DNA of 33,273 nt from Opitutaceae bacterium (lineage in GTDB: Bacteria > Verrucomicrobiota > Verrucomicrobiia > Opitutales > Opitutaceae): contig PLTZ01000031.1 in NCBI GenBank assembly GCA_003164715.1, positions 1 to 33,273 of the forward strand, written 5' to 3'. Below the pieces are notes generated by a model. The model saw only the letters and a list, made by a program, of their open reading frames with translations. It had not been told where the DNA came from and did not search any database. Below, piece after piece: positions 4,723 through 25,546 of this stretch; the stretch's first letter is position 1; each line of letters starts with the position of its first letter. A program made the translations under genes and the position numbers.

Positions 4723-6102
4723 TCAGGACTTCGTCACACGGGCGAGAAGCGCCGCGCGCTCGTCCTGGTTCCTCCAATAGTTCTCAATCACCTTGGTGTA
4801 GGCGGGGATTACCATCCTCACGAGGAGCTTGCCGAAGAGGTTCTTGAAGCTTGGGCGGGAGTCGCGCTCGATGAATTTCTCCGTGCGGGGATTCAACTGG
4901 GCAATCTGCCGGCGCCCGGCGAGGTCCTGGAGATCGCCGAACAGGTCGCCGCAAAGGTTGAAGGTCGCGCGAGGGTTGTAGACAAGCGGGCTGGCGGCGT
5001 TGAACGCCCGACGCAGCCACGGGCGATCCTCGCCGTGGCCCGACTCGGCAAGGATGTCGCCGATCCGCATGCCCCCGAATGTGCCCAGCTCGAACGCATA
5101 CTCGCTGGTCAGGAGATGGCGGGCGCCGGCCTCGGGGTCGCCTCCGGCCAGCGCAGCCGCGAGCCGGGCCCGCGCCGCCGGCGAAACGGCCGCCGTGTCC
5201 AGGATGAAGGTGGCCGTGGAGAGGGAGAGGTGCTCCATCACGACGCTGATCATCGTGCGCACGAGGGTGCGCGAGTACGGCTGGAGCTTGCGGCTGAGCT
5301 GGAGGAGGGGCAGGAGGGTGTCGATGGCGTCGTCGCCGCGGCCGTCCAGCGCCTGAAGGCTTGCGATCGCGATGCCGTGCTGCGACGCGGTGCGGATGGG
5401 CTGGAACGCGAGGATCTCGGCGTCCATGCGCGCCGGTGTGAGGTCGCCGATGCGGTCGAACGCGTTGAGCTCGGCCAGCCACGCGCGCTCCGGGGCGAGG
5501 TCCCGCCAGTGCGCCTCGAGTTCGGCCCGGTGGGCCGCGAGGGTGTCGCGCCACGGTCCGGGCGGGTAGGGAACGAGGTTGGGATAGGGATCCTTGAAGG
5601 GGGGCGCCTTGAAGTTGCGCCCGAACGGGTGGTCCCTCCCGTAGCGCATCAGCACGCTAAAGCTCGCATCGGCGCCGGGAAACGCCGGCGACAGCTCCTC
5701 CACGGTGAGCGGGCGGCGGATTGCCGCGTCGTCATGCGCCAGGTACGAAAGCACGGCCCCAAGAACCACATAGCCAAGGCCGATGCGCCACCACGAGCGC
5801 GCCTGCAGCCGCCAGGAGGCCAGAAGGATCCCCAGGGTCGCCACAAGTAGCCCGGCGCCCGTGCCGACGGCGATCATCCCGTTCGGCTCATGGGAGCCGG
5901 CCATGCTCCAGCCCACGAGCAGCAATTCGAGGTGATCACTGAGCCGGGTGATCGCCGCGGCCACGCCGAGCAGCAGGAGCAGGGCGGCGACGACGGCCTG
6001 CAGCCCGAGCGCGGCCAGGCGAAGCCCGCGAAGGGGAGGGGGTCCCTCGGGGGCGGGATCGGGGGTGCTCACGTTGGGAAGGGTTCGCGTCGGGTGCGCC
6101 AC
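4723..6102 (-). CDS. Membrane protein of unknown function
   Basis: A 459-residue protein that I cannot assign to a family. Three hydrophobic helices lie near residues 28-52, 75-97 and 106-122, followed by a soluble region of about 330 residues that is mostly alpha-helical and has no visible catalytic motif. A cluster of prolines and aromatics (about 160-180) separates the membrane part from the helical part. The soluble part recalls bacterial proteins that carry a helical tally-like domain after a short membrane anchor, but that is only an impression. It starts at GTG 6102, 37 bases after the molybdenum hydroxylase large subunit on the same strand, so it is probably the last gene of that operon. 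A link to the hydroxylase's electron transfer is possible but unsupported. Confidence 0.7.
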   Translation of the reverse strand: MAHPTRTLPNVSTPDPAPEGPPPLRGLRLAALGLQAVVAALLLLLGVAAAITRLSDHLELLLVGWSMAGSHEPNGMIAVGTGAGLLVATLGILLASWRLQARSWWRIGLGYVVLGAVLSYLAHDDAAIRRPLTVEELSPAFPGADASFSVLMRYGRDHPFGRNFKAPPFKDPYPNLVPYPPGPWRDTLAAHRAELEAHWRDLAPERAWLAELNAFDRIGDLTPARMDAEILAFQPIRTASQHGIAIASLQALDGRGDDAIDTLLPLLQLSRKLQPYSRTLVRTMISVVMEHLSLSTATFILDTAAVSPAARARLAAALAGGDPEAGARHLLTSEYAFELGTFGGMRIGDILAESGHGEDRPWLRRAFNAASPLVYNPRATFNLCGDLFGDLQDLAGRRQIAQLNPRTEKFIERDSRPSFKNLFGKLLVRMVIPAYTKVIENYWRNQDERAALLARVTKS

Positions 6103-6139: not shown

Positions 6140-8314
6140 TCAGGCCTGCTGGGCCTTGGCTTCCAAAGCCGCCTTCACCCTCTCGGGCGACATGGGCAGC
6201 TCCAGCAGGCGGACGCCCGTCGCATCGTGGACCGCGTTGGCAATGACGGCGCCCGTCAGGATGATGGCAGGCTCGCCTCCGCCCCTTGGCGGCGTGTCGT
6301 CGGCCTCGAGGATCACGGTCTCAATCTTGGGCACCCACGAGAAGCGGGGCAGGGCGTAGCGGTCGAAGTTCGTGTCGCGGATCGCCCCGTCCTTGAAGTG
6401 GATCTCCTCCGAGAGCGCATAGCCCAGGCCCATCGTGATGCCGCCCTCCATCTGGATCTTCGCGCCCGCCGGGTTGATGACCAGGCCCATCTCCTGGACC
6501 CACAGGGCGCGCTTCACGGTGATCTTCCCGTCCTTTACGCCGACCTCGGCGATCGCGGCGACGTAGCTTCCGGCATCCTGGCCGCAGGCGACCCCTAGGC
6601 CCCGGCCGCTCGGGCCCTTTGCGGGCTGCCAGCCCCAGTGGTCGGCCGCGGCCTTGAGCACCCGTGTGAGCCGGGCGTCCTTGAGCTGGCGCAGGCGGAA
6701 TTCGATCGGGTCCACGCCCGCCATCGACGCCAGCTGGTCGACGTGGGATTCGCGGGCAAAGGCGTTGTTGCTCGAGCCCGGCGCGCGCCACGCTCCGACC
6801 TCGAAGGGATGGTATCCGGGCGGCCCGTTGAAGCCTCCGACGGCCGCAGTCCGGTGGTGCGCGATGTCGTACAGGTGCTCGGACGCTCGGTCGCCTGAAA
6901 AGCGCACCTCGTAGTCCCAGAACGCGATCCTGCCGGCCGCGTCGAGCCCCGAATCCACCTTGATGACGGACGCCGGCCTGAAGGTGTCGTTGAAGAACTC
7001 CTCCTCGCGCGTCCACATCACCTGGACGGGGCGGCCCGTCGCCTTGGACAGGCGCGCGGCCTCGACAGCCTGCAGGTTGAAGGACTTGCCGCCAAAGCCG
7101 CCGCCGACAAACGGGGTGATGACCCTGACCTTCGGGATCGGCAGGCCGAGCGCCAGGGCGATCTCCTCCCTGGCGCCAAAGGGATTCTGGGTGGAGGCCC
7201 AGACGGTCGCGTGGTCCCCCTCCACATGGGCGAGCGCCGTGTGGGTCTCCATGGCCGCGTGGGCGACGTAGGCGCCCAGGTAGGTCTGGCTCAGGCGCCG
7301 GACGGCGAGCCCGCGGCCGACGTCAAGGTCGCCGCCCTGGGCCACGACCCGGGCCTCGAGCTTCGCCTGCTCCAAGTGGGCGTAGATCGTCCTGTCGTCC
7401 AGCTTGGACGGGGACGGCTCGAACTCGGCGCGGACCTTTCCCAGCGCGTCTTCCGCGGCATCGGGCAGCGCGTGCAGGACGGCCATCAGGTCGGGTTGCT
7501 GGACGATGACAATGCCCTCGGTCCCCTTGAGCCCCGAGGTGTCCACCCGCTTCAAAACGGCCCCGTGCGCGGGAGCGCGCAGGATGCTGGCGTAGAGCAT
7601 TCCGGGAAGGCGCACGTCTCCCGCATAGACCGCCCTGCCCGTCACCTTTTCTCGGGAGTCCTTGCGCAGGAGCGGTTTGCCAATGATCCGGAACTGATCC
7701 GGGGTCTTCAGGTTTGGTTTCGCCGTCACCTGGCGCTCAATCTTCTTTCCCATGGTCAGCTGGCCGTAGGTGATCTTCCTTGCCGGATCCTTGGTGTCGG
7801 TGACGACGCCCAGATGGACCGAAAGCTGCGCCACGGGGACCTGCAGCGTCTCGGCCGCCTCTTCCAGCAAGGCTCCCCTGGCCTCCGCCGCAGCCGTCCT
7901 CCAGACGGTGCCGAACGTCTGGGTGGTTTGGGAGCCCCAGGTGCCCTGGTCGAACGGGCACAGGTCCGTGTCGCCCATGACCATGCTGATGTCGTCGACG
8001 GAAACGTCGAGGTCCTCGGCGAGCATCTGGGGCAGCGAGGTGATCGGACCCTGGCCCATCTCGATCTTGCCCGTGAAGCACGTCACGTGGCCGTTCTCGT
8101 CAATGTGCAGGAAGGCGTTGAAGTCCCCTGTCGGCTTGGGGCGCACCGTGACCGGATGCGCCGCCTCCGACACCTCGGCGCCCGCGGTCCGGCCGAGGAC
8201 GACCCATACGAAGAGGCCCGTGCCCAGGCGCTTGACAAACTCACGGCGCGTCGGGAGCAACGCCTCGTCCTGCACGGGTGCACCCGGCCTGAGCGATAGG
8301 GGCGAGCGGTTCAT
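6140..8314 (-). CDS. Molybdenum hydroxylase large subunit, IorB-like, Tat-exported
   Basis: A 724-residue molybdopterin-binding subunit of the xanthine oxidase superfamily, closest in layout to the isoquinoline 1-oxidoreductase beta subunit. It carries a twin-arginine signal (TRREFVKRLG, about 22-31) and a hydrophobic stretch, so the folded complex should be exported. Family motifs are visible: QTTQTFGT in the N-terminal part, GGGFGGKSF for cofactor binding, GQDAGSYVA, and GGGEPAI near the C-terminus with E681 as the expected catalytic glutamate. The start at 8314 overlaps the small subunit's stop by 4 bases (ATGA), which indicates translational coupling. Enzymes of this group hydroxylate aldehydes or N-heterocycles using water and pass electrons through the small subunit. 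The substrate cannot be told; no FAD subunit or cytochrome is adjacent. Confidence 0.9.
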   Translation of the reverse strand: MNRSPLSLRPGAPVQDEALLPTRREFVKRLGTGLFVWVVLGRTAGAEVSEAAHPVTVRPKPTGDFNAFLHIDENGHVTCFTGKIEMGQGPITSLPQMLAEDLDVSVDDISMVMGDTDLCPFDQGTWGSQTTQTFGTVWRTAAAEARGALLEEAAETLQVPVAQLSVHLGVVTDTKDPARKITYGQLTMGKKIERQVTAKPNLKTPDQFRIIGKPLLRKDSREKVTGRAVYAGDVRLPGMLYASILRAPAHGAVLKRVDTSGLKGTEGIVIVQQPDLMAVLHALPDAAEDALGKVRAEFEPSPSKLDDRTIYAHLEQAKLEARVVAQGGDLDVGRGLAVRRLSQTYLGAYVAHAAMETHTALAHVEGDHATVWASTQNPFGAREEIALALGLPIPKVRVITPFVGGGFGGKSFNLQAVEAARLSKATGRPVQVMWTREEEFFNDTFRPASVIKVDSGLDAAGRIAFWDYEVRFSGDRASEHLYDIAHHRTAAVGGFNGPPGYHPFEVGAWRAPGSSNNAFARESHVDQLASMAGVDPIEFRLRQLKDARLTRVLKAAADHWGWQPAKGPSGRGLGVACGQDAGSYVAAIAEVGVKDGKITVKRALWVQEMGLVINPAGAKIQMEGGITMGLGYALSEEIHFKDGAIRDTNFDRYALPRFSWVPKIETVILEADDTPPRGGGEPAIILTGAVIANAVHDATGVRLLELPMSPERVKAALEAKAQQA

Positions 8315-11979: not shown

Positions 11980-14289
11980 CTACTGCACGAGGTAGACCTC
12001 GATTAGCGCCGCGCCGCCATAGCCGCTCACACTGGAGACCTGGGCCGTGTAGCCGCCCGGGGCAAGCGTGACAAGAATCGCCGAGTCCTCGCTTGTCGGG
12101 TCGTTCCAGGCGAAGGCCCCGACCCGCGCCGCCGCGCTTGCGATTTGCGAATCCCCGCCCCAGCCGAGATTCGAGGCGATCAGGTTCTGGTTGCCGTCAA
12201 AGAGCTGAAGCTGGGGGTCGGCAATCGTTGCCTGGACACCGAATGCCGCGAGGGCAGGTCCCGACGCGCGGATTAGGACCGTGTCGGCGGTTGTCCCCGA
12301 GATGACAAAGCCCGCGATCAATATGTTGTCGCCGGCGGCGACGAAACCGCGGGAGGACACGTTGACGAGCTGGCTGCCCGTGCCGCCAGCGTCGGCGTCA
12401 TAGATCTCCGCGAGGGCCACGCCGTTTGCGTAAGAGGCGACGGCGATCTGCGAGGTGTAGCCCCCGGCGGGCAGCGTGATCTTGACCGCACAATCGGCAG
12501 ATCCCTGGGGGAGCCCGAATGCGCCCACCTGGGCGAAGTCGCCGCTCGTCGCGTCGACCGGGGACGCCTTCCCTGACCATGAAGCCGCGGGCTGCGTCGG
12601 GGCGTTCTGCCAGCCGGTGTCAACGGTGATCAGACTGGGCGGACTTCCTGCGTCATAGAGCGAGAGGATCGGGGTCTGCAGCGCGTCGGAAAGCCCGAAG
12701 GAGGCGAGCGCGGGCCCGATGCCGCGCAACACGAGGGACTTTGGGCCCTGTCCTCGGATGACGAATCCGGCCGTCAGGGCCTCCGGAATGGCGTTGAGAC
12801 CTTCCGAGACGTAGGCGCGGGTGGAAAGGTTGATGATGCGGCCGGGGTCCGCGCTTGAGACGACGGTCAGGGCCGCCGCGGAGCTGGTTACGCTTCCCGT
12901 ACTGTTGGTGACCGTGCACGCGTAATCCCCGGCGTTTGCCGTCGTCACGCCTCCGTAGATGAACAGCGTCGGGGAGGACGAGCCTGATATGCCGTTTCCG
13001 TCCGACAGGGGCGCGCCATTGAACGACCAGGCGTAACCCGGGGAGGGCCTGCCGTTCGCCGCCGCGTTGAACACGACGGGCGAGCCGAAGTTCACCGTCT
13101 GGGGCCGTGGCGCGGCCGTGATCGACGGGGCGACCGCGCTCGGCACGCCATCCAGCACCACCACGGTGCCGTCCGCGTCGCCGCATGCGACGTAGACCCT
13201 GTTCGTGGTCGGGTTCACGACGACCCCGAAGGGGTAGCTCCCCGCGTAGACCGTGGATGAGGTGTTGGTAAAGCCGTCTATCACCGTCACGCTTCCCGCG
13301 GCGTCCAGGTTTGCGACGTAGATCACGTTTGTCACCGGGTTTACCGCGATTGCAGCCGGAATGCGTCCCGTCACGATCAGCGATGTGGCCCTCGTGGCTC
13401 CATCGATTGCCATCACGCTCCCGTTGCCGTCGTCGTTCACAGCATAGATCTTGTTTGTCGTGGCATTCACGGCGATGGCCACGAATTGGAATCCCGTGCC
13501 GACGCTGGAGTACCTGTCGGTCGCCCCGTCGATGATCGATACCGCGCTGCCGTCCAGGTTCGCGACATAGACCATGTTGGTCGCCGAGTCCACGGCGATG
13601 GCGCTGGGATAGGCGCCGGGCGTGCCCGTCGCAGATAAGGAATTTGTGGCCCCGTCGACTACCAGCACGCTGCCGCCCTCATAGGGGTCCAGGATGAAGA
13701 TCTTGTTTGTCACCGGATTCACCGCGATGGCGGCGGGAAAGGTGTTCGGGGCGATAGTCGTTGTCGTGTTGGTGGCCCCATCGATCACCGTCACGTTGCC
13801 GTAGATGATGTCGACGCTGTTCGTGTTGCTGACGTAGATCTTGTTTGTCGCCGAATTCACGGCGATGGCGTTTGGGCCCATTCCAATGGCGACGGTCGAC
13901 GTCGAGTTTGTGGCGCCGTCGATCACCGTCATGGTGTTGCTGGCGTTGTTTGTGACGTAGATCTTGTTCGTCACCGTGTTCACGCCGATCGCGTTGGGAC
14001 CTGTTCCCACCGCGACCTTGGTCGTGGCGTTCGTCGCCCCATCGATCACCGTCACGTAGTTGCCGGAACTGCTGGCGACATAGATCTTGTTTGTCACCGG
14101 GTTCAGAGCCACTGCGGAGGGAGCGGGCCCCGTAGCGATGGTGGTTACCACCTGCTGCGCCAGGGCTGGCAGGCCCGTGCCTGCCGCGACAAGGAGGCAT
14201 GCGAGCCGCACCAACGCGGCACGGAGGGCCGCTGCCAGGTCAGCTGGCCGGCCGGGCCGATCAATCCGGCGCGATGGGGACGCTTGCAT
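11980..14289 (-). CDS. Secreted YVTN beta-propeller / Ig-like protein with two C-terminal modules
   Basis: A 769-residue exported protein. A basic N-terminus and hydrophobic stretch (about 18-45, ending in ALA) form the signal. Residues 46-385 hold eight repeats of about 42 residues with the core NPVTNKIYV...VTVIDGATN, the YVTN-type propeller repeat. An Ig-like domain follows (about 387-483, with a GDYACTVTN strand). The C-terminal 285 residues are two copies of a roughly 140-residue module with the pattern NLSTRAYV...GFVI...LRGIGPAL...FG, seen in many secreted proteins of Opitutus-like bacteria. The start ATG 14289 gives a sensible signal; the frame stays open upstream but without family similarity. 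No catalytic residues are seen; a binding, adhesion or scaffolding role outside the cell is plausible. No PEP-CTERM or LPXTG signal. Confidence 0.85.
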   Translation of the reverse strand: MQASPSRRIDRPGRPADLAAALRAALVRLACLLVAAGTGLPALAQQVVTTIATGPAPSAVALNPVTNKIYVASSSGNYVTVIDGATNATTKVAVGTGPNAIGVNTVTNKIYVTNNASNTMTVIDGATNSTSTVAIGMGPNAIAVNSATNKIYVSNTNSVDIIYGNVTVIDGATNTTTTIAPNTFPAAIAVNPVTNKIFILDPYEGGSVLVVDGATNSLSATGTPGAYPSAIAVDSATNMVYVANLDGSAVSIIDGATDRYSSVGTGFQFVAIAVNATTNKIYAVNDDGNGSVMAIDGATRATSLIVTGRIPAAIAVNPVTNVIYVANLDAAGSVTVIDGFTNTSSTVYAGSYPFGVVVNPTTNRVYVACGDADGTVVVLDGVPSAVAPSITAAPRPQTVNFGSPVVFNAAANGRPSPGYAWSFNGAPLSDGNGISGSSSPTLFIYGGVTTANAGDYACTVTNSTGSVTSSAAALTVVSSADPGRIINLSTRAYVSEGLNAIPEALTAGFVIRGQGPKSLVLRGIGPALASFGLSDALQTPILSLYDAGSPPSLITVDTGWQNAPTQPAASWSGKASPVDATSGDFAQVGAFGLPQGSADCAVKITLPAGGYTSQIAVASYANGVALAEIYDADAGGTGSQLVNVSSRGFVAAGDNILIAGFVISGTTADTVLIRASGPALAAFGVQATIADPQLQLFDGNQNLIASNLGWGGDSQIASAAARVGAFAWNDPTSEDSAILVTLAPGGYTAQVSSVSGYGGAALIEVYLVQ
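13135..14154 (-). repeat. Eight tandem coding repeats of the YVTN propeller
   Basis: Eight in-frame repeats of about 117-138 bases encode the propeller blades of the surrounding gene. At nucleotide level the blocks encoding TNKIYV and VIDGATN recur almost unchanged (for example TAGATCTTGTTTGT several times between 13440 and 14095). The repeat number could change by recombination. Confidence 0.85.
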
Positions 14290-14499
14290 GATTGGGGATG
14301 GTTCCGGTCTGATTGTCCGCGGTCGCTCCTGCGGTCCGGGGCGTACAGATGCGTGCGTGGAGATTCGTGGGTTTTCGCTGGGCTTCAGGAGGTATTTTTT
14401 GCATGCGCCGTGCCACATGTCCCGAATCAGCACTAAACCATTTTGGAGAAATGGGTAACAATTTCTGCGGCATGCCACCCGTATTGCGACATGGGAGGG

Positions 14500-14519
14500 A
14501 ACGGTTGTGTGCAACCGTT
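14500..14519. promoter_or_regulatory. Perfect inverted repeat upstream of the propeller gene
   Basis: AACGGTTG and CAACCGTT form a perfect 8-bp dyad around the centre TGTG. It lies about 210 bases before the start of the propeller gene on the opposite side from any other gene. It could be an operator or a hairpin in a long leader. It is a single copy, so function is open. Confidence 0.4.
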
Positions 14520-14747
14520 GCGGGATTCCGGCGAGATTTTGGATTTGTGACATCCACCCAATCCGGCGCGTTCGCACCCAGGGCGTTGAACCTGCCGTCG
14601 AAGCGGCTGCGGTGGGGCGCCGGGTGGCATTGTGTCCTGGATGCAGGGAGCCGTTGCACGGCGACGAAGAAGACATGGCCAACCCGGACCCACAGATGCA
14701 GCCGAACCGAGGCTTCCTTCCGGCGCACGGCGTCGCAGATTCGCGTG

Positions 14748-14818
14748 AACCCGCCGGCAACCGCGGCTTCCTGGGGGATTTGGGCGTGTACCTCGTGGAC
14801 TTAGCCACCTATCCGGCG
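14748..14818 (+). pseudogene. Fragment of a Gfo/Idh/MocA oxidoreductase gene
   Basis: The stretch encodes GNRGFLGDLGVYLVDLATYPA, the same 21-residue segment as in the intact gene at 10731-11801 (17 of 21 residues identical). Over 14756-14818 I count 52 of 63 bases identical. Upstream the match continues over a few bases (ACCCGCC) after a 2-base gap, and then is lost on both sides. The residue matching catalytic H199 is tyrosine. No frame of useful length surrounds it, so it is a relic of a second gene copy or of a related gene. It ends 10 bases before the stop of the convergent adenosine-specific kinase gene. Confidence 0.7.
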
Positions 14819-14827
14819 CCCGCGGCC

Positions 14828-15313
14828 TCATTGTTTATAGCCGATCTGCCGTAGGAATCCCTTCCGCCAGGCGATGTCCGCCTCGCCCTCGACGCCCTTC
14901 GGACCGGAGCCGTCGATAACGCCGACAACCCCGCGGCCGAGTTCCGTCGCCGCCACAATCACCTCAGTCGGGTTCGCCGTGGCGCAGACGATGTGGCAGA
15001 CCTCCGGCACGGCCTTCAGCGCGTTGAGGACGTTCACGGGGAAGAACCCGTCTGCGAGAAACACGAAGAACGTGTGGCCCGCGCCGACCGCAAGCGCGTT
15101 CGTCTTTGCCAACTCTATCATGGTGGCATCGGTGCCGGACCAGCGCACGAGGCACTTCCCCGATGCCTCGCAGAACGCCAGGCCGAACTTGATGCCCGGA
15201 ACCGTGTTCACGAGCGCCTCGTGCACGTCCTCGACCGTCTTGATGAAGTGGGCTTGGCCGAGGATGAAGTTGGTGGTTTCCGGCTTTCCGATCCTGACCG
15301 TGGTCAGCTGCAT
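14828..15313 (-). CDS. Adenosine-specific kinase family protein
   Basis: A 161-residue protein of the small family described in archaea as adenosine-specific kinase. Conserved blocks are present in order: FGLAFCEASGKCLVR (43-57), a GHTFFVFL strand (79-86), FPVNVLN (91-97), EVCHIVCATANP (104-115) and GRGVVGVIDG (127-136). The length matches the family. The start is ATG 15313, where the family begins (MQLTTVRIGKPE); earlier in-frame starts add an unrelated arginine-rich stretch. An AAAGGCAGG stretch sits 6-14 bases upstream. It is cytoplasmic and may phosphorylate adenosine, or bind a nucleotide. The O-methyltransferase gene upstream on the same strand is 163 bases away; both may belong to nucleoside or SAM by-product handling, but that is speculation. 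Confidence 0.9.
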   Translation of the reverse strand: MQLTTVRIGKPETTNFILGQAHFIKTVEDVHEALVNTVPGIKFGLAFCEASGKCLVRWSGTDATMIELAKTNALAVGAGHTFFVFLADGFFPVNVLNALKAVPEVCHIVCATANPTEVIVAATELGRGVVGVIDGSGPKGVEGEADIAWRKGFLRQIGYKQ

Positions 15314-15476
15314 GGCGCGCCTGCCTTTCGTATTTTTGTTGGCTCTTCTTCCGCCCGATGAACCCACCCGGCGGACGGGGTCCTGTTCGGATCCAGCTTC
15401 TCGCACCCCAGCCGCGAGCCGTCAAGGGCAGGGGAGCCCCCGAGGGGAGCGTGATGCCGTCATTGGCCTAAGACCG

Positions 15477-16475: not shown

Positions 16476-16647
16476 GAGAACAATCTGACCCGAAACGAGG
16501 CGCACGACAATCCCATCCGGGGCAGGCCATGCGGCAGAAACCCCGAATGGACGCTGCCCCGTTGGTCCAGCCGGCTGTCCAATCTTGGCATTGTCTGCAG
16601 GGGGATTTGGGGATAACATATTCGAGTCGGAAGGAGATGGGGACTTT

Positions 16648-18060
16648 ATGCAGGAGCGAATTGAATTTTCCGGGTTGATGCCGCATGCGCCGATTCTCGT
16701 ACCGGGTGTGGGAGGCGAGCGCCTCGTCCATGTCGAGCGCACGGCCCGTGCGATGGGCATTGTCGCCAGCCGCGCGCTGGCGACGGAACCGGACACCGTG
16801 GTGGTGATTTCGCCGCACTCGCCCAGGCGCCCGGGCGCTTTCGGGCTTTGGCACACACCGAGGCTTTGCGGCTCGCTGGACCAGTTCGGATCGCCGGAGG
16901 ACCGCGTCGACCTGCCGCTGGACCGGGGCTTCACCGACCGGATGGAGCGCGAGGCGGAGCGCCTGGGGCTCCGGACCTGGCGGATCGTCGATGAGCCTTT
17001 GGATCACGGAGCCTTGGTGCCGCTCTGCTACCTCACGTCGGCCGGGTGGAAGGGGCCAACCGTGATCGTCGGCCTGAACTACCCGGGAGAGGGCGGGTTG
17101 GACAAACTCGGCCAGGCCATTGCCGCCACGGCAATGGGGCTCGGCCGGCGAACGGCGGTCATCGCGAGCGGCGACATGAGCCACAGGCTCATCCCGACGG
17201 CGCCGGCGGGCTATGACCCCGAGGCGCGCCGCTTTGACGACGCATTCATTAACCTATTGCGAAAGGGAGCGTTCGGGGAGCTCAGGCAAATCAACCCGGC
17301 CCTTCAGGAGCGGGCCGCCGAGGACGTCGTGGACTCCACCCTGGTGGCCTTGGCGGCCTGCGGCCACCAGGCTGCGGGCCATCACGAGGTGCTCAGTTAC
17401 GAGGGGCCGTTTGGCGTCGGTTACGGCGTGGCGATCCTTTTCGAGCGGGAGCGACCGGGGAGCGCAGGCCCCGCAGCCTCAGGAACCGAGGGCAGGAAGG
17501 TCTCGCGCTTTGAGGAGCTGCCTGCCCTCGCGCGGTGCGCGGTCGAGGCCAGGCTGCTCAGCGGCCCGGCGCAGCCGCCGTTTATCGCCTGTGGAGAGCT
17601 CGCGAGGCCGGGCGCCGTGTTCGTGACCGTGAGAAGCGACACGGGCGAGTTGCGCGGATGCCGGGGAGTCACCGAGCCGCTCGGGCCGGATCTCGTCTCG
17701 GAAACCTGGCGGTGCGCCGTGGCCGCGGCCATCCATGACGGGCGTTTCCCGCCGGTCACGGCCGCGGAGCTGCCGCACATGCGATTCACCGCCACCGTGC
17801 TCGGGCAGCTCGAGCCGGTAGCCTCTCCCAGGGACCTCGACCCGGCCGTCTACGGAGTTCTGGTGTCGGCCGCCGACGGGCGCAGGGGAGTGCTGCTGCC
17901 CGCCATCGAGGGCGTCGGCTCGGTGGGTGAGCAGCTCGCGATTGTTCGGGAAAAGGCGGGTATTTCGGACGACGAGTCCATTCAGATTGAGCGGTTCACG
18001 GCGAAGACCTTCAAGGAGGCGCCGCCTGGACCGGCGGGAGGCGACCATGATGCTGGCTGA
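16648..18060 (+). CDS. AmmeMemoRadiSam system protein: LigB/Memo-like domain fused to AMMECR1
   Basis: A 470-residue two-domain protein. Residues 1-268 form a class III extradiol dioxygenase (LigB/Memo) domain with likely metal-site histidines in MPHAP (H13), ISPHSP (H57), LDH (H120) and SGDMSH (174-179), ending in SYEGPFGVGYG. Residues 285-460 are an AMMECR1 domain with LRGCRG (335-340), where most homologues read LRGCIG, and a C-terminal SIQIERFTAKTF. The start ATG 16648 has an AAGGAGA site at 16631-16637. The next gene overlaps it by 14 bases and encodes the radical SAM partner, so the pair is one translationally coupled cassette. The system is widespread in bacteria and archaea but its reaction is not established; the known component set (AMMECR1, Memo-like, radical SAM) is all here. 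Confidence 0.92.
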   Translation: MQERIEFSGLMPHAPILVPGVGGERLVHVERTARAMGIVASRALATEPDTVVVISPHSPRRPGAFGLWHTPRLCGSLDQFGSPEDRVDLPLDRGFTDRMEREAERLGLRTWRIVDEPLDHGALVPLCYLTSAGWKGPTVIVGLNYPGEGGLDKLGQAIAATAMGLGRRTAVIASGDMSHRLIPTAPAGYDPEARRFDDAFINLLRKGAFGELRQINPALQERAAEDVVDSTLVALAACGHQAAGHHEVLSYEGPFGVGYGVAILFERERPGSAGPAASGTEGRKVSRFEELPALARCAVEARLLSGPAQPPFIACGELARPGAVFVTVRSDTGELRGCRGVTEPLGPDLVSETWRCAVAAAIHDGRFPPVTAAELPHMRFTATVLGQLEPVASPRDLDPAVYGVLVSAADGRRGVLLPAIEGVGSVGEQLAIVREKAGISDDESIQIERFTAKTFKEAPPGPAGGDHDAG

Positions 18061-19135
18061 TGACCCGCGCTTGTCCGCCCACGCGGCGCGCTGGTGGACA
18101 AAACGGCCCGACGGCCGCATCGAGTGCAGGCTGTGCCCGCGCTACTGCAAGCTGCAGAACGGGCAGAAGGGGTTCTGCTTTGTCCGCCAGCGTACGGGCG
18201 ACGAGATGGTGCTTAGCACCTACGGCCGGAGCAGCGGATTCTGCATCGATCCGATCGAGAAGAAGCCGCTCAACCATTTTCTGCCGGGCACCAGCGTGCT
18301 GTCGTTCGGCACGGCGGGGTGCAACCTCGGCTGCAGGTTCTGTCAGAACTGGGATATCAGCAAGGCGCGGGAGTTCGACAGGCTTACCGATGCCGCGTCG
18401 CCCGAGCTGATTGCAAACACGGCGCGGCGCCTCGGCTGCCGTTCGGTGGCGTTCACCTACAATGATCCCGTAATCTTCGCAGAATACGCCATCGATGTCG
18501 CAAAGGCGTGCCGCGAGAGGGAAGTCAGGACCGTGGCAGTGACCGCAGGCTACATTACCGATGAGGCCCGGCCGGAGTTCTTCCAGGCCATGGATGCCGC
18601 GAATGTGGACCTAAAGGGATTCACGAAGGAATTCTACGAGCGGCTCTGCTTCGCCCGGCTGCAGCCGGTGCTCGACACCCTGGTATACCTGCGCAGGGAG
18701 ACCGACGTCTGGCTCGAGGTCACGACGCTGCTGATTCCGGGGCAGAACGACGGCAGCGATGAAATCGAGCGGGCTTCCGACTGGTTCGCCGCCAATCTCG
18801 GGCCCGACGTGCCGTGGCACTTCACCGCGTTCCATCCCGACTTCAGGATGCTCGGCGTTCCACCGACCCCCTCGGCCACGCTTAATCGCGCGCGCGATAT
18901 CGCGCGCTCCAAGGGCCTGAAGTACGTCTATACCGGCAACGTGTTCAGCCGCGCGGGAGGGAGCACCTGGTGCCCGTCGTGCGGCGCGCTCCTGATCGAG
19001 CGCCAGGGGTACGAGTTGGGCTCCTACACTCTGGAACGCAACCGCTGCAGCGCATGCGGCTGCGCCATTGCGGGACGCTTTGAGAGCCATCCGGGGACCT
19101 GGGGGGCGCGCCGCGAACCGGTGCGGCTAAGTTGA
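18047..19135 (+). CDS. amrS: AmmeMemoRadiSam system radical SAM enzyme
   Basis: A 362-residue radical SAM protein. The [4Fe-4S] cluster ligands are C92, C96 and C99 in CNLGCRFC. An N-terminal group (CRLCPRYC with C27, C30, C34, then C44) and C-terminal pairs (CPSC and CSAC) could bind additional metal; the C-terminal part resembles a zinc ribbon. The motif TYNDP and the strand VDLKGF are typical of the pyruvate-formate-lyase-activase-like branch. The start is the first of two tandem ATGs (18047), 5 bases after GGGAGG at 18036-18041, and 14 bases inside the upstream gene. Its substrate is unknown; the tight coupling to the LigB-AMMECR1 protein implies they act together. Cytoplasmic. Confidence 0.92.
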   Translation: MMLADDPRLSAHAARWWTKRPDGRIECRLCPRYCKLQNGQKGFCFVRQRTGDEMVLSTYGRSSGFCIDPIEKKPLNHFLPGTSVLSFGTAGCNLGCRFCQNWDISKAREFDRLTDAASPELIANTARRLGCRSVAFTYNDPVIFAEYAIDVAKACREREVRTVAVTAGYITDEARPEFFQAMDAANVDLKGFTKEFYERLCFARLQPVLDTLVYLRRETDVWLEVTTLLIPGQNDGSDEIERASDWFAANLGPDVPWHFTAFHPDFRMLGVPPTPSATLNRARDIARSKGLKYVYTGNVFSRAGGSTWCPSCGALLIERQGYELGSYTLERNRCSACGCAIAGRFESHPGTWGARREPVRLS

Positions 19136-19293
19136 AGGAGGCGGCCTGTGCGCCGGATGCCCGGGCCGAAGGGGCTCTTTGGGCAGCGTTCGCTTAAAGT
19201 CATTGAAACCCCCACCGGAGCGGTTGCAGTAGGAGGCTGCGCGGCTTCTTGCCCCGAGCGCAGGGGTCCGCAGTCGGCCCTAGCAACCAACAT

Positions 19294-22104
19294 ATGGCGA
19301 ACCCAGCCCCCCTGAATCCGTCGGCCACTCGAATCCGCCCGGCGCGGAACACGCAGGTTGCGCGCGGGCCGTCCGACTTCCGTGGAAGTCCCGTCCGGCC
19401 GCGCGCCGCGGGCGCGAGGCCTCGCGGTGGGGTGCGTGTGCTGCACCGGTGGGCCGTCCCGGCGCTCGCGGCTCTCTTCTTCCTTGGCTGCACGGGCGCG
19501 TCGGCCGCTGAGCCCCGGTCGATCGCAGTCGTGTGGAGGGACGGCGGCGCAAAGGGGCGCATCATCGTTCGGCGCGGGGAGATCATGCGCAGCGGGGTGG
19601 GGGACATCTCGGCGGACGGGTCCTATTCATGCGCGAATTCCCGCAGAATCGAGCTGTCGGTAATCGGGTCGGACGCGCCCGCGAACCCCGGGCGCACGCT
19701 GGTCACGGTGCAGGACGAGAGGGCCCCCTTCACGTTCTTCCTGGGCGACGTCATGGCCGACTATCCCATTTGGATTCCCGCCTACGGCGTCGCCGTGACG
19801 CAGGCGCGCGACCGCCGCGGCTATGAGCAGATTGCCGCGGAACTGCGCTCCCGCGGCCTAAAGTCGGACCTCGGCCGGATCGAGAGCGAGCTCGAGGAGA
19901 CGTTCGAGGGGGCGGCAAAGGTCGTCCGCGACCAGAAGGTCGAGACGTGGCTCGGGCTCGGACGGGACGTTCGGATCTTCGGCGTGGGCCCGCGCCTTGA
20001 CTGGATCCAGCCGCGCTATCCGTACACGGGGTACCCTGTCGTTCCGGGGGACAAGGACACGCCCCAATTGCAGCTGATGCTCGGCCGGGGCTGGGGCGCG
20101 ACCGAGGGCGTCCACCGCCGGCTGGACGGGGGCGTGCTTCCCATTCTCACCGGCACCAGGATTGACGGCGACGTGACCTATCGGGCCACGTTCTTCGCCT
20201 CGCTTGAGTCGAGCCCGCTGCGCGTCGGCAACGTCCGGGGCACCCACTTCCTCGTGGCTGACGGCCTGGGGGCCGGACACATGTTCACGCCGGGCCAGCA
20301 GGCCGAGTTCGACCGCCTGAAACCCGGGGAATTGGACAGGGCTGAGGAGACGGTCCTCTACTCGAGGGTGGTCGCCTTGAACACGGGCGCGGTGCCGCGC
20401 TACGCCTTCGTCAAGGTCCCGGCCGGCGCGCCTGAGTGGGGGGGCAGCTTTGACGGCGGCAGGGGGTGGGGCCGGGTCAAGTCGGGCCAGGTCTACCTCG
20501 TGGGCAAGCTCAACGGCCACGCCCTTCCACAGGAGGAGTCCTCGAAGCTTCTGGCCCCGGGCGAGGAGGCCACGTTCGACTTCTTCGTGCCGCACAGGCC
20601 GATACCAGCGGAGCGGGCCCCGGCCCTTGCCGGGCAGGACTTCGGGGCGCGCCTCGGGGAGGCCCGCGCCTACTGGCGCGCGAAACTCGATACCGCCGCG
20701 AAGGTCCGCCTTCCGGACCCGCGGGTGAACGAGATGATCCAGGCGGGCCTGCTGCACCTGGACCTGGTCACCTACGGGATCGAGCCCCTAGGGACGCTGA
20801 CCTCGCAGATCGGCATCTACAACGCCATCGGCTCGGAGAGTTCGCCGATCATCCAGTTCATGGACTCGATGGGCTGGCACGAGGAGGCGGGCCGTGCGCT
20901 CGGGTATTTTCTCGAGAAGCAGCACGACGACGGCTTCATGCAGAATTTTAGCAACTACATGCTGGAGACCGGCGCGGTCCTCTGGAGCCTCGGCGAGCAC
21001 TACCGCTACACACGTGACCTTGAATGGGTTCGCGGGATCGAGCCGAAGGTGCTGAAGGCCGCCCGGTACCTGCGCGACTGGCGCCGCCGGAACGAAAGAG
21101 AAGAGCTGCGGGGCGGGGGCTACGGGATGCTGGACGGCAAGACCGCGGACCCGGAGGACCCCTTCCGTTCGTTCATGCTCAACGGCTACGCCTACCTGGG
21201 CTTCGCGCGGGTTGCCGAGATGCTGGAGGCGATCGACCCGCCGGAGGCCCGCGTCTGGCGGGAGGAGGCGCAGGGTCTAAGGAAGGACATCCGCACCGCC
21301 TTCTTTGAGACGATGGCGAAATCCCCGGTGGTTCCCCTGGGCAACGGAAGCTGGGTGCCGACCGCGGCGCCCTGGGCGGGCTACAGCGGCCCGGTGATGC
21401 TTCAGGCCGACGGAGGCAGCTGGGACAGCCATGGCACCGTCACGACCCGGGACTCGCTGCTCGGGCCGATTTATCTCATCTTCCAGGAGGTCATCGATCC
21501 GGCCGAGCCCGCGGCGTCCTTCCTCATTTCATACCACAGCGAGCTGATGACGGACCGCAACGCGGCCTTCAGCCAGCCCTACTACAGCCGGCACGCGTGG
21601 GCGCACCTGCAGCGGGGCGAGGTGAAGCCCTTCCTGAAGACCTATTACAACACCGTCGCCAGCCTCGCGGACCGTGAGACCTACACCTTTTGGGAGCATT
21701 ATTTCGGGCAGAGCCCGCACAAGACGCACGAGGAGGGCTGGTTCCTCATGCAGACCCGGTGGATGCTCTACCTCGAAAGGGGCGACACGCTCAACCTCCT
21801 GCCGGGGATACCTAGGGACTACCTATCCGGCGGCAGGACGCTGGAGCTCAATGGGGTGGCCACGTACTTCGGGCCGGCATCGCTCCATGCGGAGGCTTCG
21901 GCGGACGAGACCCGCGTCACGGCTCACGTCGAATGCGACTCGGAGCGCAGGCCGCGGACGGTCCGGATACGCCTTGCGCACCCATCGGGGCTCAGGCCCC
22001 TGAAGGTCGGCGGCGGAACCTACGACGCCGCCACGGAGACCGTGAGCATCTCCCCGTTTTCCGGCACGGCCGACGTGCAGCTCGAGTTTGCGCCCACCCG
22101 CTGA
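19294..22104 (+). CDS. Large exported (alpha/alpha)6-barrel glycosidase-like protein
   Basis: About 936 residues. Export is indicated by the hydrophobic stretch WAVPALAALFFLGCTGASA, with LGC as a possible lipoprotein site. An N-terminal beta-sandwich-rich half leads to a helical barrel from about residue 470, with paired helices and conserved-looking segments (GSESSPIIQFMDSMGWH, QHDDGFMQNFSNYM, WEHYFGQSPHKTHEEGW). This layout matches six-hairpin glycosidases such as GH78/GH15-like groups, but I cannot place it in a known family. Acidic candidates include the DD in HDDGF and the E residues of WEHYFG and HEEGW. The start is uncertain: ATG 19294 is used; TTG 19249 has AGGAGG 12 bases upstream; GTG 19432 would begin right before the signal. 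A hairpin overlaps its stop. Confidence 0.72.
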   Translation: MANPAPLNPSATRIRPARNTQVARGPSDFRGSPVRPRAAGARPRGGVRVLHRWAVPALAALFFLGCTGASAAEPRSIAVVWRDGGAKGRIIVRRGEIMRSGVGDISADGSYSCANSRRIELSVIGSDAPANPGRTLVTVQDERAPFTFFLGDVMADYPIWIPAYGVAVTQARDRRGYEQIAAELRSRGLKSDLGRIESELEETFEGAAKVVRDQKVETWLGLGRDVRIFGVGPRLDWIQPRYPYTGYPVVPGDKDTPQLQLMLGRGWGATEGVHRRLDGGVLPILTGTRIDGDVTYRATFFASLESSPLRVGNVRGTHFLVADGLGAGHMFTPGQQAEFDRLKPGELDRAEETVLYSRVVALNTGAVPRYAFVKVPAGAPEWGGSFDGGRGWGRVKSGQVYLVGKLNGHALPQEESSKLLAPGEEATFDFFVPHRPIPAERAPALAGQDFGARLGEARAYWRAKLDTAAKVRLPDPRVNEMIQAGLLHLDLVTYGIEPLGTLTSQIGIYNAIGSESSPIIQFMDSMGWHEEAGRALGYFLEKQHDDGFMQNFSNYMLETGAVLWSLGEHYRYTRDLEWVRGIEPKVLKAARYLRDWRRRNEREELRGGGYGMLDGKTADPEDPFRSFMLNGYAYLGFARVAEMLEAIDPPEARVWREEAQGLRKDIRTAFFETMAKSPVVPLGNGSWVPTAAPWAGYSGPVMLQADGGSWDSHGTVTTRDSLLGPIYLIFQEVIDPAEPAASFLISYHSELMTDRNAAFSQPYYSRHAWAHLQRGEVKPFLKTYYNTVASLADRETYTFWEHYFGQSPHKTHEEGWFLMQTRWMLYLERGDTLNLLPGIPRDYLSGGRTLELNGVATYFGPASLHAEASADETRVTAHVECDSERRPRTVRIRLAHPSGLRPLKVGGGTYDAATETVSISPFSGTADVQLEFAPTR

Positions 22105-24166: not shown

Positions 24167-25546
24167 CTATAGGCCGAAGAACGTGTAGTGGGGCTTGCGC
24201 TCGGCCATCCGCTTGATGAGCAGCGCGAGCTCCCGGGCATGGTAGTCGCCCCACATGCTCGATTCGCCGCAGGGGACCTTCCGGCCCGCCGGCACGTGGT
24301 CCCATCCCCGGGGCCGGTGGTAGACCGTGTGGAGCAGGAGCCCCTGGTGGCGCGGCGAGGTGGAGAGGTAGGGCTCGCTGAAGATCGTCCGGGCGATGGT
24401 GAGCCCGGCGGCGAGGTAGCGGTCGCCGGCCCCGGACGGGCGCCTGGCGAGCAGATACCGTCCGAGCCTGACGAGGCCCTGCGCCGCGATGGCCGCAGCC
24501 GAGCTGTCGACCGGCTCGTGTTCGTTGAAGGGATCGGCGGGCCGCTCGAGGTAGGCGCCGAGCCGCTCAAGGCCGGGGGCGCCGGTGTCCCAGTAGGGCA
24601 CGCCGTCCGTGGGCGTCTGCGCGAGGAAGTAGTCGGCCGTCACGCGGGCCACCCTCAGGAACCGGCCCATGACGGCTGCCTTGCCCCCGTGCGCCTTCAG
24701 CTCGCCGTCGGAGAGCGTGTCGAGGAATTCGAGCTGCTCCGCATAGCCGCAGAGGATCCAGGCCAGGCCCCGCGTCCACGTGGTGAAGGGCGAGTAGCCC
24801 TGCTGCGTGCTCGGGCAGCGGTAGGAGCCGTCGATCAGGTCGAAGATCGACTCGTGGGCGACTCGCCCGGGCACGTCGTAGCGGTCGCGTCCCTCGCCGA
24901 AATAGACGTTGTAGCGCGCGGTCGTCTCGGCGTGATCGAGGAGGCGCCCGAGGAGCGAGATCCTCCTGTCGCCCTCGCCCATGAGGCAGTGGCCGAGCCT
25001 GTGCGCGAGCGCGAGGATGCGCAGCGAGCGGATCGTGTCGGCGAAGAGCGAATGGGGTCCGTTGAAGGAATAGACGTAGCCGAGCCCCCCGGGAAGCCCC
25101 GTCCAGCGCGCCGCCTGCACGGCGCCCGAGACCTTCAGGGCGAGCTCGTAGAAACGGACCTCGCCCTCGTCGGCCTCCATAGCGCCGGACACCGCAAGGT
25201 GGTAGAGGTTGCCGTAGGTCGAGACGTTGTTGAACCCGTGGTCGTGGACCCCCACGTGGCTCACGTGGGCGGCCATGTGCCGGATCGTGCCGGTGCGCCC
25301 GATGGCAAGGGCCCGCCTGTCGCCCGTGGCGGCAAACTGCAGGATCGCCGAGCCGAACTGGAAGCCCTGGGTCCATTCCGTCCAGCCGCGCGACGTGTAC
25401 TTCCCGCCGACCGTGACCACGGGGGATCCGGCCATGGGGTTCCAGCTGCGGTCGAGCGCGAACACCTTCCTGGCGGACAGCTCGAAGAGGCGGTCGATGT
25501 CCCCGCGCAGGGTCCCCGGCGTGAGTGAGGTGTCGATGCGGAGCAT
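24167..25546 (-). CDS. GH88-like unsaturated uronyl hydrolase
   Basis: A 459-residue (alpha/alpha)6-barrel protein of the unsaturated glucuronyl hydrolase type. Key features follow the GH88 order. HDHGF holds D102, matching the first catalytic Asp (HDxGF). SLFADTIRSL holds D170 in the position of the second. A segment HAETTARYNV, the motif TWTRGLAW (usual form WARGQAW) and DSSAAAIAAQGL follow. It would remove 4,5-unsaturated uronic acid from oligosaccharides left by a polysaccharide lyase. No signal peptide is visible, so the oligosaccharide should be imported first. It starts 12 bases after the SDR gene in the same operon. The glycan could be rhamnogalacturonan, ulvan or a glycosaminoglycan; the nearby rhamnose mutarotase favours a rhamnose-containing one. 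Confidence 0.86.
   Translation of the reverse strand: MLRIDTSLTPGTLRGDIDRLFELSARKVFALDRSWNPMAGSPVVTVGGKYTSRGWTEWTQGFQFGSAILQFAATGDRRALAIGRTGTIRHMAAHVSHVGVHDHGFNNVSTYGNLYHLAVSGAMEADEGEVRFYELALKVSGAVQAARWTGLPGGLGYVYSFNGPHSLFADTIRSLRILALAHRLGHCLMGEGDRRISLLGRLLDHAETTARYNVYFGEGRDRYDVPGRVAHESIFDLIDGSYRCPSTQQGYSPFTTWTRGLAWILCGYAEQLEFLDTLSDGELKAHGGKAAVMGRFLRVARVTADYFLAQTPTDGVPYWDTGAPGLERLGAYLERPADPFNEHEPVDSSAAAIAAQGLVRLGRYLLARRPSGAGDRYLAAGLTIARTIFSEPYLSTSPRHQGLLLHTVYHRPRGWDHVPAGRKVPCGESSMWGDYHARELALLIKRMAERKPHYTFFGL

Follow-up and report, generated by a model that had tools for sequence, protein, structure and literature searches.

We propose, at roughly even odds (probability about 0.5), that the two genes at positions 16648 to 19135 of the window, the whole 33,273-nucleotide stretch of Opitutaceae DNA analysed here, make up a metalloenzyme module, a LigB-type version of the AmmeMemoRadiSam system with a two-step chemistry. 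Established below are the domain make-up of the pair, its co-occurrence across genomes, the folds of the models and the alignment with a dioxygenase iron triad. As to the chemistry, the radical SAM enzyme (rS), built like pyruvate formate-lyase activase, would cleave SAM and abstract a hydrogen from a substrate that the fusion protein either holds or is given. The AMMECR1 domain, with its invariant R-G-C-x-G loop, would be the binding or presenting part, and the LigB half, holding Fe(II) via H13, H57 and E225, would carry out a second step on the same compound. Systems of the AmmeMemoRadiSam kind are already known, and the window pair joins them in its LigB-type form; the Memo, AMMECR1 and radical SAM trio has relatives in humans, namely MEMO1 and AMMECR1. 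The main paper on the superfamily is reportedly that of Burroughs and others (JBC 2019).

Gene layout and domain composition

An earlier, sequence-only reading had described two coupled genes with a 14-base overlap and a ribosome site before each, and the open reading frames agree with this description. The two ribosome-binding-like motifs were read from the sequence, without a start-site predictor.

16631..16636, plus strand: AAGGAG, ribosome-binding-like, 5′ of the fusion gene
16648..18060, plus strand: LigB-AMMECR1 fusion gene, ATG 16648 to TGA 18060, 470 aa (open reading frame, domain matches, AlphaFold2 model)
16675..17430, plus strand: LigB-type extradiol dioxygenase-like domain, residues 10–261 (PF02900, model Z scores)
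17458..17493, plus strand: flexible interdomain linker, about residues 271–282 (lowest pLDDT block; residues 276–280 below 50)
17527..18012, plus strand: AMMECR1 domain, residues 294–455 (PF01871, model Z score, conserved loop)
18036..18041, plus strand: GGGAGG, ribosome-binding-like, 5′ of the radical SAM gene
18047..18060, plus strand: gene overlap, 14 bases (sequence)
18047..19135, plus strand: radical SAM enzyme gene of the AmmeMemoSam_rS type, ATG 18047 to TGA 19135, 362 aa (TIGR04337, model)

The overlap is not conserved, since the fusion and rS genes lie about 130 bases apart in a genome of the same family (G099). A further in-frame ATG of the rS gene is present at 18050, from which the overlap would be 11 bases.

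The domains that had been read from the letters were all recovered by Pfam and NCBIfam profiles, with scores far beyond chance. The fusion protein matched PF02900 (LigB) with 105 bits (cut-off 26.3, E 4e-30) and PF01871 (AMMECR1) with 118 bits (cut-off 25, E 5e-34); the latter match lies in the C-terminal half, where a search for AMMECR1 had been named beforehand as a test. The rS protein matched TIGR04337, the radical SAM family of AmmeMemoRadiSam systems, with 612 bits (cut-off 220, E 2e-184), and a radical SAM Pfam profile with 66 bits.

The N-terminal half had been labelled 'LigB/Memo', and of this label only LigB stood. Neither Memo profile, PF01875 or TIGR04336, matched the fusion protein at E ≤ 0.001, and the predicted fold lies closer to the dioxygenases than to MEMO1 (see below), which rules out a Memo identity for this half. 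In the alignment of 76 fusion rows, PF01875 was matched by 26 sister rows and TIGR04336 by 55 rows (best E 1.2e-10). On TIGR04335 (protein A) the window protein scored 94.9 bits, just under the cut-off of 99, which was approximately reached by 73 of the 76 LigB-AMMECR1 fusions (E ≤ 1.5e-28, taken as about 99 bits). The window pair thus shares with the AmmeMemoRadiSam system (TIGR04335, TIGR04336, TIGR04337) coupled genes, the same rS family, AMMECR1 and a member of the Memo/LigB domain superfamily, but has a LigB-type domain instead of Memo in the role of protein B. As TIGR04336 gave no match, we regard the pair as a LigB-type variant and not as a strict three-component member.

Predicted fold and putative metal site of the LigB half

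The AlphaFold2 model of the fusion protein had a mean pLDDT of 93.5 and a pTM of 0.69; because of the latter value the placing of the two halves relative to each other is left open. The AMMECR1 half matched PH0010 with a Z score of 20.9. The LigB half matched TK2203 of Thermococcus kodakarensis (5hee; Z 31.9), the beta subunit of the iron-containing 2-aminophenol 1,6-dioxygenase (3vsh_B; Z 29.7) and MEMO1 (7kq8; Z 19.8), and the PF02900 score together with the dioxygenase fold match places it in the LigB/class III extradiol dioxygenase family. Unlike the fusion, TK2203 (262 residues) and the aminophenol dioxygenase chain (about 300 residues) are single-domain proteins that lack AMMECR1, and the identity to them is 24–25%.

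We assigned candidate ligands by alignment with AmnB, the aminophenol dioxygenase (3vsg_B), and counted residues in the alignment of 76 fusion rows.

16684..16686, plus strand: codon for His13, the counterpart of the iron ligand H13 in AmnB (76/76 rows have His)
16816..16818, plus strand: codon for His57, the counterpart of the iron ligand H62 in AmnB (76/76 rows have His)
17182..17184, plus strand: His179 codon of SGDMSH (His in 76/76 rows); presumably a second-shell acid/base and not a ligand, by analogy with LigB His195
17320..17322, plus strand: codon for Glu225, the counterpart of the iron ligand E251 in AmnB (70/76 rows have Glu)
17323..17325, plus strand: codon for Asp226, at the aligned position of the Cys by which Memo binds metal (C244 in MEMO1); 64/76 rows have Cys and 12/76 have Asp

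The three AmnB residues are named as iron ligands in PMC11081632, and their alignment with H13, H57 and E225 predicts the two-His, one-carboxylate iron site of class III extradiol dioxygenases. The metal residues proposed from the sequence-only reading were H13, H57, H120 and SGDMSH. The two former align with AmnB ligands; H120 and SGDMSH (174–179) are present in the protein, but the same alignment rules out H120 and H179 as ligands, and E225 takes their place. H120 was missing from 6 of the 76 rows, as was E225 from 6, while D176 was invariant, like H179. The two-His, one-Cys site of Memo is not found in the window protein: in the alignment Asp226 stands at the Cys position, with the dioxygenase Glu225 preceding it.

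Distribution of the fusion and co-occurrence with rS

A genome scan found at least 583 stretches related to the LigB-AMMECR1 fusion. Among the best 80 of these, 73 were single-frame fusions; the rS gene followed in 62 and came before in 5, and in the loci without a nearby rS gene it was found elsewhere in the genome in every case (13/13). In a phylum sample of 194 genomes, AMMECR1 was carried by 92 (102 genes), and 58 of these genes were fused, 55 to Memo and 3 to LigB. The arrangement is thus ordinary and common, and the scan and the fused share rule out its being rare or specific to this locus. The sequence-only reading had also held that fusion forces a one-to-one stoichiometry of the two halves. 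This is usual, judging from the 58/102 fused genes, but not universal, since 6 of the best 80 LigB-type loci have the halves as separate genes side by side, and it is therefore uninformative on the window locus. That the LigB-like and AMMECR1 parts share a substrate, as suggested at the same time, is plausible.

Co-occurrence of the two genes, named beforehand as a test, held across the sample. AMMECR1 was present in 92 genomes and rS over its cut-off in 90, with both in 89; 3 AMMECR1 genomes lacked an rS over the cut-off, 1 of the 90 rS genomes lacked AMMECR1, and Memo or LigB was present in all 92 AMMECR1 genomes. Together with the 13 of 13 non-adjacent cases, these counts support the view that the fusion and rS are parts of one functional module. 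The ties among AMMECR1, Memo and rS were looser in two controls, of which Haloferax matched AMMECR1 and neither Memo nor rS, and Thermus matched Memo and not AMMECR1.

The bacterial Memo-AMMECR1 fusions resemble the window protein in being fused to AMMECR1, and their Memo adjoins the same rS clade. A tree in which the Memo-partnered rS proteins form a single clade was rejected (AU p 0.00017), so LigB and Memo replace one another beside one rS clade.

We also searched for further partners by clustering all open reading frames of at least 60 aa from 82 loci and the window (83 loci). Among the 45 clusters listed, only the fusion (83/83) and rS (70/83) recurred widely as true genes; the next gene families occurred in at most 24 of the 83 loci, and the other large clusters were antisense frames. 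By reading, without a family search, the former look like housekeeping genes (a cwlD-like amidase, rpsI, rplM, truA, an ABC transporter and others). An adenosine-specific kinase and a methyltransferase adjoin the cassette in the window. Neither was matched at E < 1e-15 in the loci L061, L041, L062 (where just 462 bases lie 5′ of the fusion) and L063, nor at 1e-6 in L006 and L041–L060, where the methyltransferase frame matched solely the antisense of a fusion gene. We therefore did not count them as partners.

The want of a widely recurring metabolic neighbour among these clusters fits a non-catalytic role, in which the LigB/Memo half would be a binding domain for metal or redox sensing. Human MEMO1, according to PMC11081632, binds iron via H49, H81 and C244, showed no dioxygenase activity with the substrates tried and is proposed to act in iron homeostasis. 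We consider such a role quite unlikely for the window protein, as a radical SAM enzyme is the steady companion of this domain and D176 and H179 are conserved throughout, as in an active site.

The window's genome also has a second cassette, apparently exported; a phrase search of the literature on exported radical SAM proteins gave no match.

The radical SAM enzyme and its possible target

The rS sequence contains the following cysteine motifs, counted in an alignment of 47 rows.

18125..18178, plus strand: N-terminal Cys cluster C27, C30, C34, C44 (invariant, 47/47 rows)
18320..18343, plus strand: radical SAM motif C92-x3-C96-x2-C99 (invariant, 47/47 rows)
18971..19057, plus strand: two Cys pairs near the C-terminus, C309/C312 and C334/C337, which by eye resemble a zinc ribbon (at least 90% of the rows)

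The C-terminal pairs are missing in the short L042 protein. The rS model (pLDDT 94.7) matched pyruvate formate-lyase activating enzyme (3cb8) with a Z score of 23.7 over 225 residues, 6.5 above the next protein, NifB; compared with that enzyme, rS adds the N-terminal Cys cluster and the C-terminal Cys pairs.

This fold suggests another possibility, in which the fusion protein is the target of rS and becomes the working enzyme once modified, the most likely site being the AMMECR1 loop R336-G337-C338-x-G340 or its vicinity. The next NCBIfam matches of rS after TIGR04337 were also glycyl-radical activases, the four named loop residues were invariant across the 76 fusion rows, and rS tracks AMMECR1 regardless of the dioxygenase-like partner. 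However, the activase profiles scored far under their cut-offs (best, TIGR02493, 54 versus 232 bits), and AMMECR1 is not known to have the fold of glycyl radical enzymes, nor does its loop correspond to the known activase motif. No glycyl radical enzyme was recognised next to rS within the window. We consider such a modification of the fusion unlikely, though deserving of some weight, and prefer the two-step module in which rS acts on a substrate.

Many rS profile matches contained stops, a mixture of TGA, TAA and TAG, which we took as the profile running beyond the gene end.

The Cys-to-Asp change and oxygen

Asp226 was carried by 12 of the 76 fusions, including the window protein, and these rows formed one clade (support 99), so the change is one evolutionary event. 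Heme-copper oxidase matches were found in 11 of the 12 Asp226-clade genomes versus 5 of the 41 Cys-type genomes tested; the exception, the L062 genome, gave no match in the same search. Under the two-step module, the second step should be oxygen-independent in the Cys-type fusions, whose hosts mostly lack oxidase matches, and in the window's clade Asp replaces that Cys in hosts that mostly have them.

The Asp226-clade LigB half might instead be a true extradiol-type dioxygenase that uses oxygen to cleave the compound made by rS, and the complete aligned iron triad, the fold nearer to iron dioxygenases than to MEMO1, the well-supported clade and the oxidase counts are all consistent with this. 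Against it, a single clade amounts to one event, L062 departs from the pattern, and a Memo-type cassette in the same genome retains Cys; we regard it as very unlikely. The further reading that the clade is an oxygen-adapted branch, in which the change from the Memo-type Cys to Asp gave a working iron dioxygenase cutting the product of its rS partner, is highly doubtful in our estimate. If true, it would join anaerobic radical chemistry and oxygen-dependent cleavage within one operon.

We also considered a dependence of the Cys/Asp state on the rS clade, and dropped this since Cys is retained in the Memo proteins that accompany the same rS clade. The natural Cys-to-Asp change beside the ligand Glu in a compact two-gene form, and the LigB/Memo swap beside one rS clade, make up a variant set suited to identifying the metal-binding residue, any use of oxygen and the part with which the radical enzyme really works. 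As regards oxygen in general, AMMECR1 is reported in 50.66% of 1,293 anaerobic versus 3.38% of 4,227 aerobic bacteria (PMC13386939).

Domain composition of the cassette

The sequence-only reading had proposed a two-gene arrangement that combines LigB, AMMECR1 and radical SAM parts with a 14-base overlap, and this was borne out by the open frames and by the Pfam and NCBIfam searches. The two genes are:

16648-18060, + strand: LigB-AMMECR1 fusion gene, open frame of 470 aa, ATG to TGA
18047-19135, + strand: gene of the radical SAM enzyme (rS), open frame of 362 aa, ATG to TGA

The genes share 14 bases, and a purine-rich, ribosome-site-like stretch precedes each of them. Pfam assigned residues 10-261 of the fusion to LigB (105 bits), residues 294-455 to AMMECR1 (118 bits) and the second gene to the radical SAM domain; rS scored 612 bits against NCBIfam TIGR04337 (cut-off 220). 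The fusion reached 94.9 bits against TIGR04335 (protein A of the AmmeMemoRadiSam system), below the cut-off of 99. The name Memo, given earlier to the N-terminal half, did not hold: Pfam gives LigB, and TIGR04336 (protein B, Memo) had no match in the fusion at E≤0.001.

We compared this with 76 fusions, namely 73 from the genome scan described below, the window's and those of two further loci (L041 and L042). About the protein A cut-off was reached by 73/76, the protein B model was matched at E≤0.001 by 55/76 and Pfam Memo by 26/76, and therefore the fused LigB form falls loosely under existing family names. The association of Memo and AMMECR1 with a radical SAM enzyme of the rS kind appears in a passage of PMC7159879, which cites Burroughs and others 2019. 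We concluded that the window fusion is a divergent member of a known fused LigB form.

Predicted structures and the metal site

From an alignment of the 76 fusions, AlphaFold2 gave a fusion model with mean pLDDT 93.5 and pTM 0.69, in which residues 276-280 (pLDDT <50) are predicted to form a flexible linker. The N-terminal half matched TK2203 (5hee_A; Z 31.9, rmsd 2.1, 251 aligned), an iron aminophenol dioxygenase (3vsh_B; Z 29.7, rmsd 2.7, 260 aligned) and MEMO1 (7kq8_A; Z 19.8, rmsd 3.1, 230 aligned), and the C-terminal half matched PH0010 (1vaj; Z 20.9, rmsd 1.8, 174 aligned). The rS model (47-row alignment; pLDDT 94.7, pTM 0.93) resembled pyruvate formate-lyase activase (3cb8_A; Z 23.7, rmsd 2.2, 225 aligned), with NifB as the next match (Z 17.2).

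Next, we aligned a LigB-half profile built from 12 fusions with aminophenol dioxygenase 3vsg_B, counting residues along the alignment. H13, H62 and E251 of the dioxygenase aligned with H13, H57 and E225 of the window protein. PMC11081632 names these dioxygenase residues as iron ligands, and H49, H81 and C244 as the metal ligands of MEMO1. Among the 76 fusions, H13, H57, D176 and H179 were kept in all, and H120 and E225 in 70 each. Position 226 was Cys in 64/76 and Asp in 12/76. It aligned with the Memo Cys at 98% probability in a profile-profile alignment; that Cys was present in 34/34 Memo rows examined (32 different genes) and aligned with MEMO1 C244 (numbered from a chain offset of 3). By these alignments and the 64/76 count, most of the 76 LigB-AMMECR1 fusions have a dioxygenase-type Glu adjoining the Cys of Memo, and the window's group has a Glu-Asp pair; the one-residue offset between the Glu and Cys/Asp positions is that suggested by sequence alignment.

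What the data show is the set of parts, the predicted folds, the co-occurrence and the aligned metal site; iron binding by the fusion, radical chemistry by rS and a common pathway for both are inferred. We put at about one half the probability of a general two-step model, in which rS would carry out a radical step on a compound held by or delivered to the fusion, and the LigB half would then act on the same compound. Activase and sensor models compete with it, as does an oxygen-using model.

Asp226 and oxygen

The last of these bears on Asp226. When the columns around position 226 were left out of the tree, the 12 Asp226 rows formed one side of a branch (support 99). Heme-copper oxidase (PF00115) was matched in 11/12 Asp226 genomes, the window's included (the exception was L062), versus 5/41 Cys-type genomes tested, from among 64 Cys-type rows (Fisher 6e-7). 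With a threshold of 300 bits, drawn after the data had been seen, the counts above it were 11/12 versus 1/41. As PF00115 includes nitric oxide reductases too, and one clade amounts to one event, this tie is a correlation to test and not evidence of oxygen use. The other cassette of the window genome keeps Cys, which counts against an oxygen link. The window genome also has an EKR domain match. In a table of PMC13386939, EKR is an anaerobe marker, and AMMECR1 occurs in 50.66% of 1,293 anaerobes versus 3.38% of 4,227 aerobes.

Distribution of the fusion and of its rS neighbour

Using three aligned fusions as the query, we scanned public genomes and obtained at least 595 stretches. At least 583 of them were relatives by tblastn, with both halves confirmed in part of these; the best 80 were kept. 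By their titles, the best 80 were mostly Bacillota, and also included Verrucomicrobiota, Acidobacteriota, Myxococcota, Chloroflexota and Actinomycetota; the closest among the matches listed, L061 (65% identical), came from an Opitutaceae bacterium, which probably places the window genome in that family. In 73 of these best 80, one open frame spanned 400 aa or more. LigB and AMMECR1 were neighbouring genes in six (L069, L073, L091, L094, L107, L128), with a linker stop at about 7780-7830 on the + strand and a new start (judged by eye) soon after, and the L067 fusion was broken.

In 62 of the same best 80 loci, rS lay no more than 1.4 kb downstream in the same orientation, a count that omits L099 (rS 6.6 kb away) and includes L067 and L129, which match an rS fragment only. 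It lay upstream in five and was not adjacent within the examined DNA in 13. Each of these 13 genomes had an rS over the cut-off elsewhere, and in two of them (L100, L118) about 500 bases were left to the contig end.

In the 85-row rS tree, the window rS belonged to a 21-row clade (support 100) comprising nine LigB-partnered, five Memo-partnered and seven rows without a partner in the examined DNA, as labelled by us; one member, L064, had a very long branch. A single clade of Memo-partnered rS was rejected (AU p 0.00017) on a tree thinned to 31 rows (22 LigB, nine Memo), chosen after the first tree and leaving out unpartnered rows and many Bacillota. These trees indicate that one rS lineage has LigB-AMMECR1 as its neighbour in some genomes and Memo in others.

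In an even sample of 194 genomes of the phylum, we observed AMMECR1 in 92, rS over the cut-off in 90 and the two together in 89 (Fisher p 1.5e-50, without correction for kinship). G004, G104 and G107 had AMMECR1 without rS over the cut-off and G076 had rS without AMMECR1; Memo or LigB was found in 92/92 AMMECR1 genomes. Genes were called fused when the partner domain ended at most 400 bases upstream of AMMECR1 and the open frame was no shorter than 400 aa. The 102 AMMECR1 genes comprised 55 Memo-fused (rS within 5 kb in 19), three LigB-fused (3/3), eight beside a separate Memo (6/8) and 36 alone (2/36). The LigB-fused trio was the window, G099 of the window's family and G133. As only four of 19 sampled members of that family carried AMMECR1 (window, G010, G099, G143; absent in 15), it is an accessory trait there. 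Two controls count against a strict bond: Haloferax has AMMECR1 but appears in the lists for neither Memo nor rS, and Thermus has Memo but does not appear in that for AMMECR1.

A second cassette in the same genome

8468-13711, + strand, locus L006 on contig C49 of the window genome: second AmmeMemoRadiSam cassette, four genes

Its genes encode a Memo-AMMECR1 fusion whose start resembles a signal peptide, an rS whose start resembles a twin-arginine signal, and two membrane proteins, one carrying a spermine synthase domain and the other 86 aa long and lacking any Pfam match (starts and membrane spans by eye). All four are kept in G010 of the same family (58% identity for the fusion, 46% for the spermine synthase-domain protein, 61% for the 86-aa protein and 70% for rS), and the cassette is conserved in L055 of that family. 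From these features, the cassette is possibly an exported radical SAM system. A location outside the cytoplasm would be unusual for a radical SAM enzyme, and a literature search by phrase for exported radical SAM proteins found no paper.

Two other AMMECR1 genes were seen. In another genome of the phylum (L057, 5602-7164, + strand), AMMECR1 follows a signal-peptide-like N-terminal part that had no match to the Memo query. The G143 gene (L054, 7329-8069, - strand; frame of 306 aa) aligns with the apparently exported fusion, starting at residue 275, and may be a shortened form of it.

Other genes of the window

4723-6102, - strand: 459-aa frame, no Pfam match
11980-14808, - strand: long repetitive protein with an Ig domain (I-set, 44 bits)
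14828-15406, - strand: adenosine-specific kinase family protein (PF04008, 241 bits)
19249-22104, + strand: 951-aa frame, no Pfam match, weak amylase-type NCBIfam match
24167-25546, - strand: 459-aa frame, no Pfam match

The adenosine-specific kinase gene lies near the cassette; no counterpart beside the cassette was found in the close relatives tested. The product of 11980-14808 is probably secreted and shows YVTN-like repeats by eye. The 4723-6102 frame has a 51% identical counterpart in L061, some 0.9 kb past rS.
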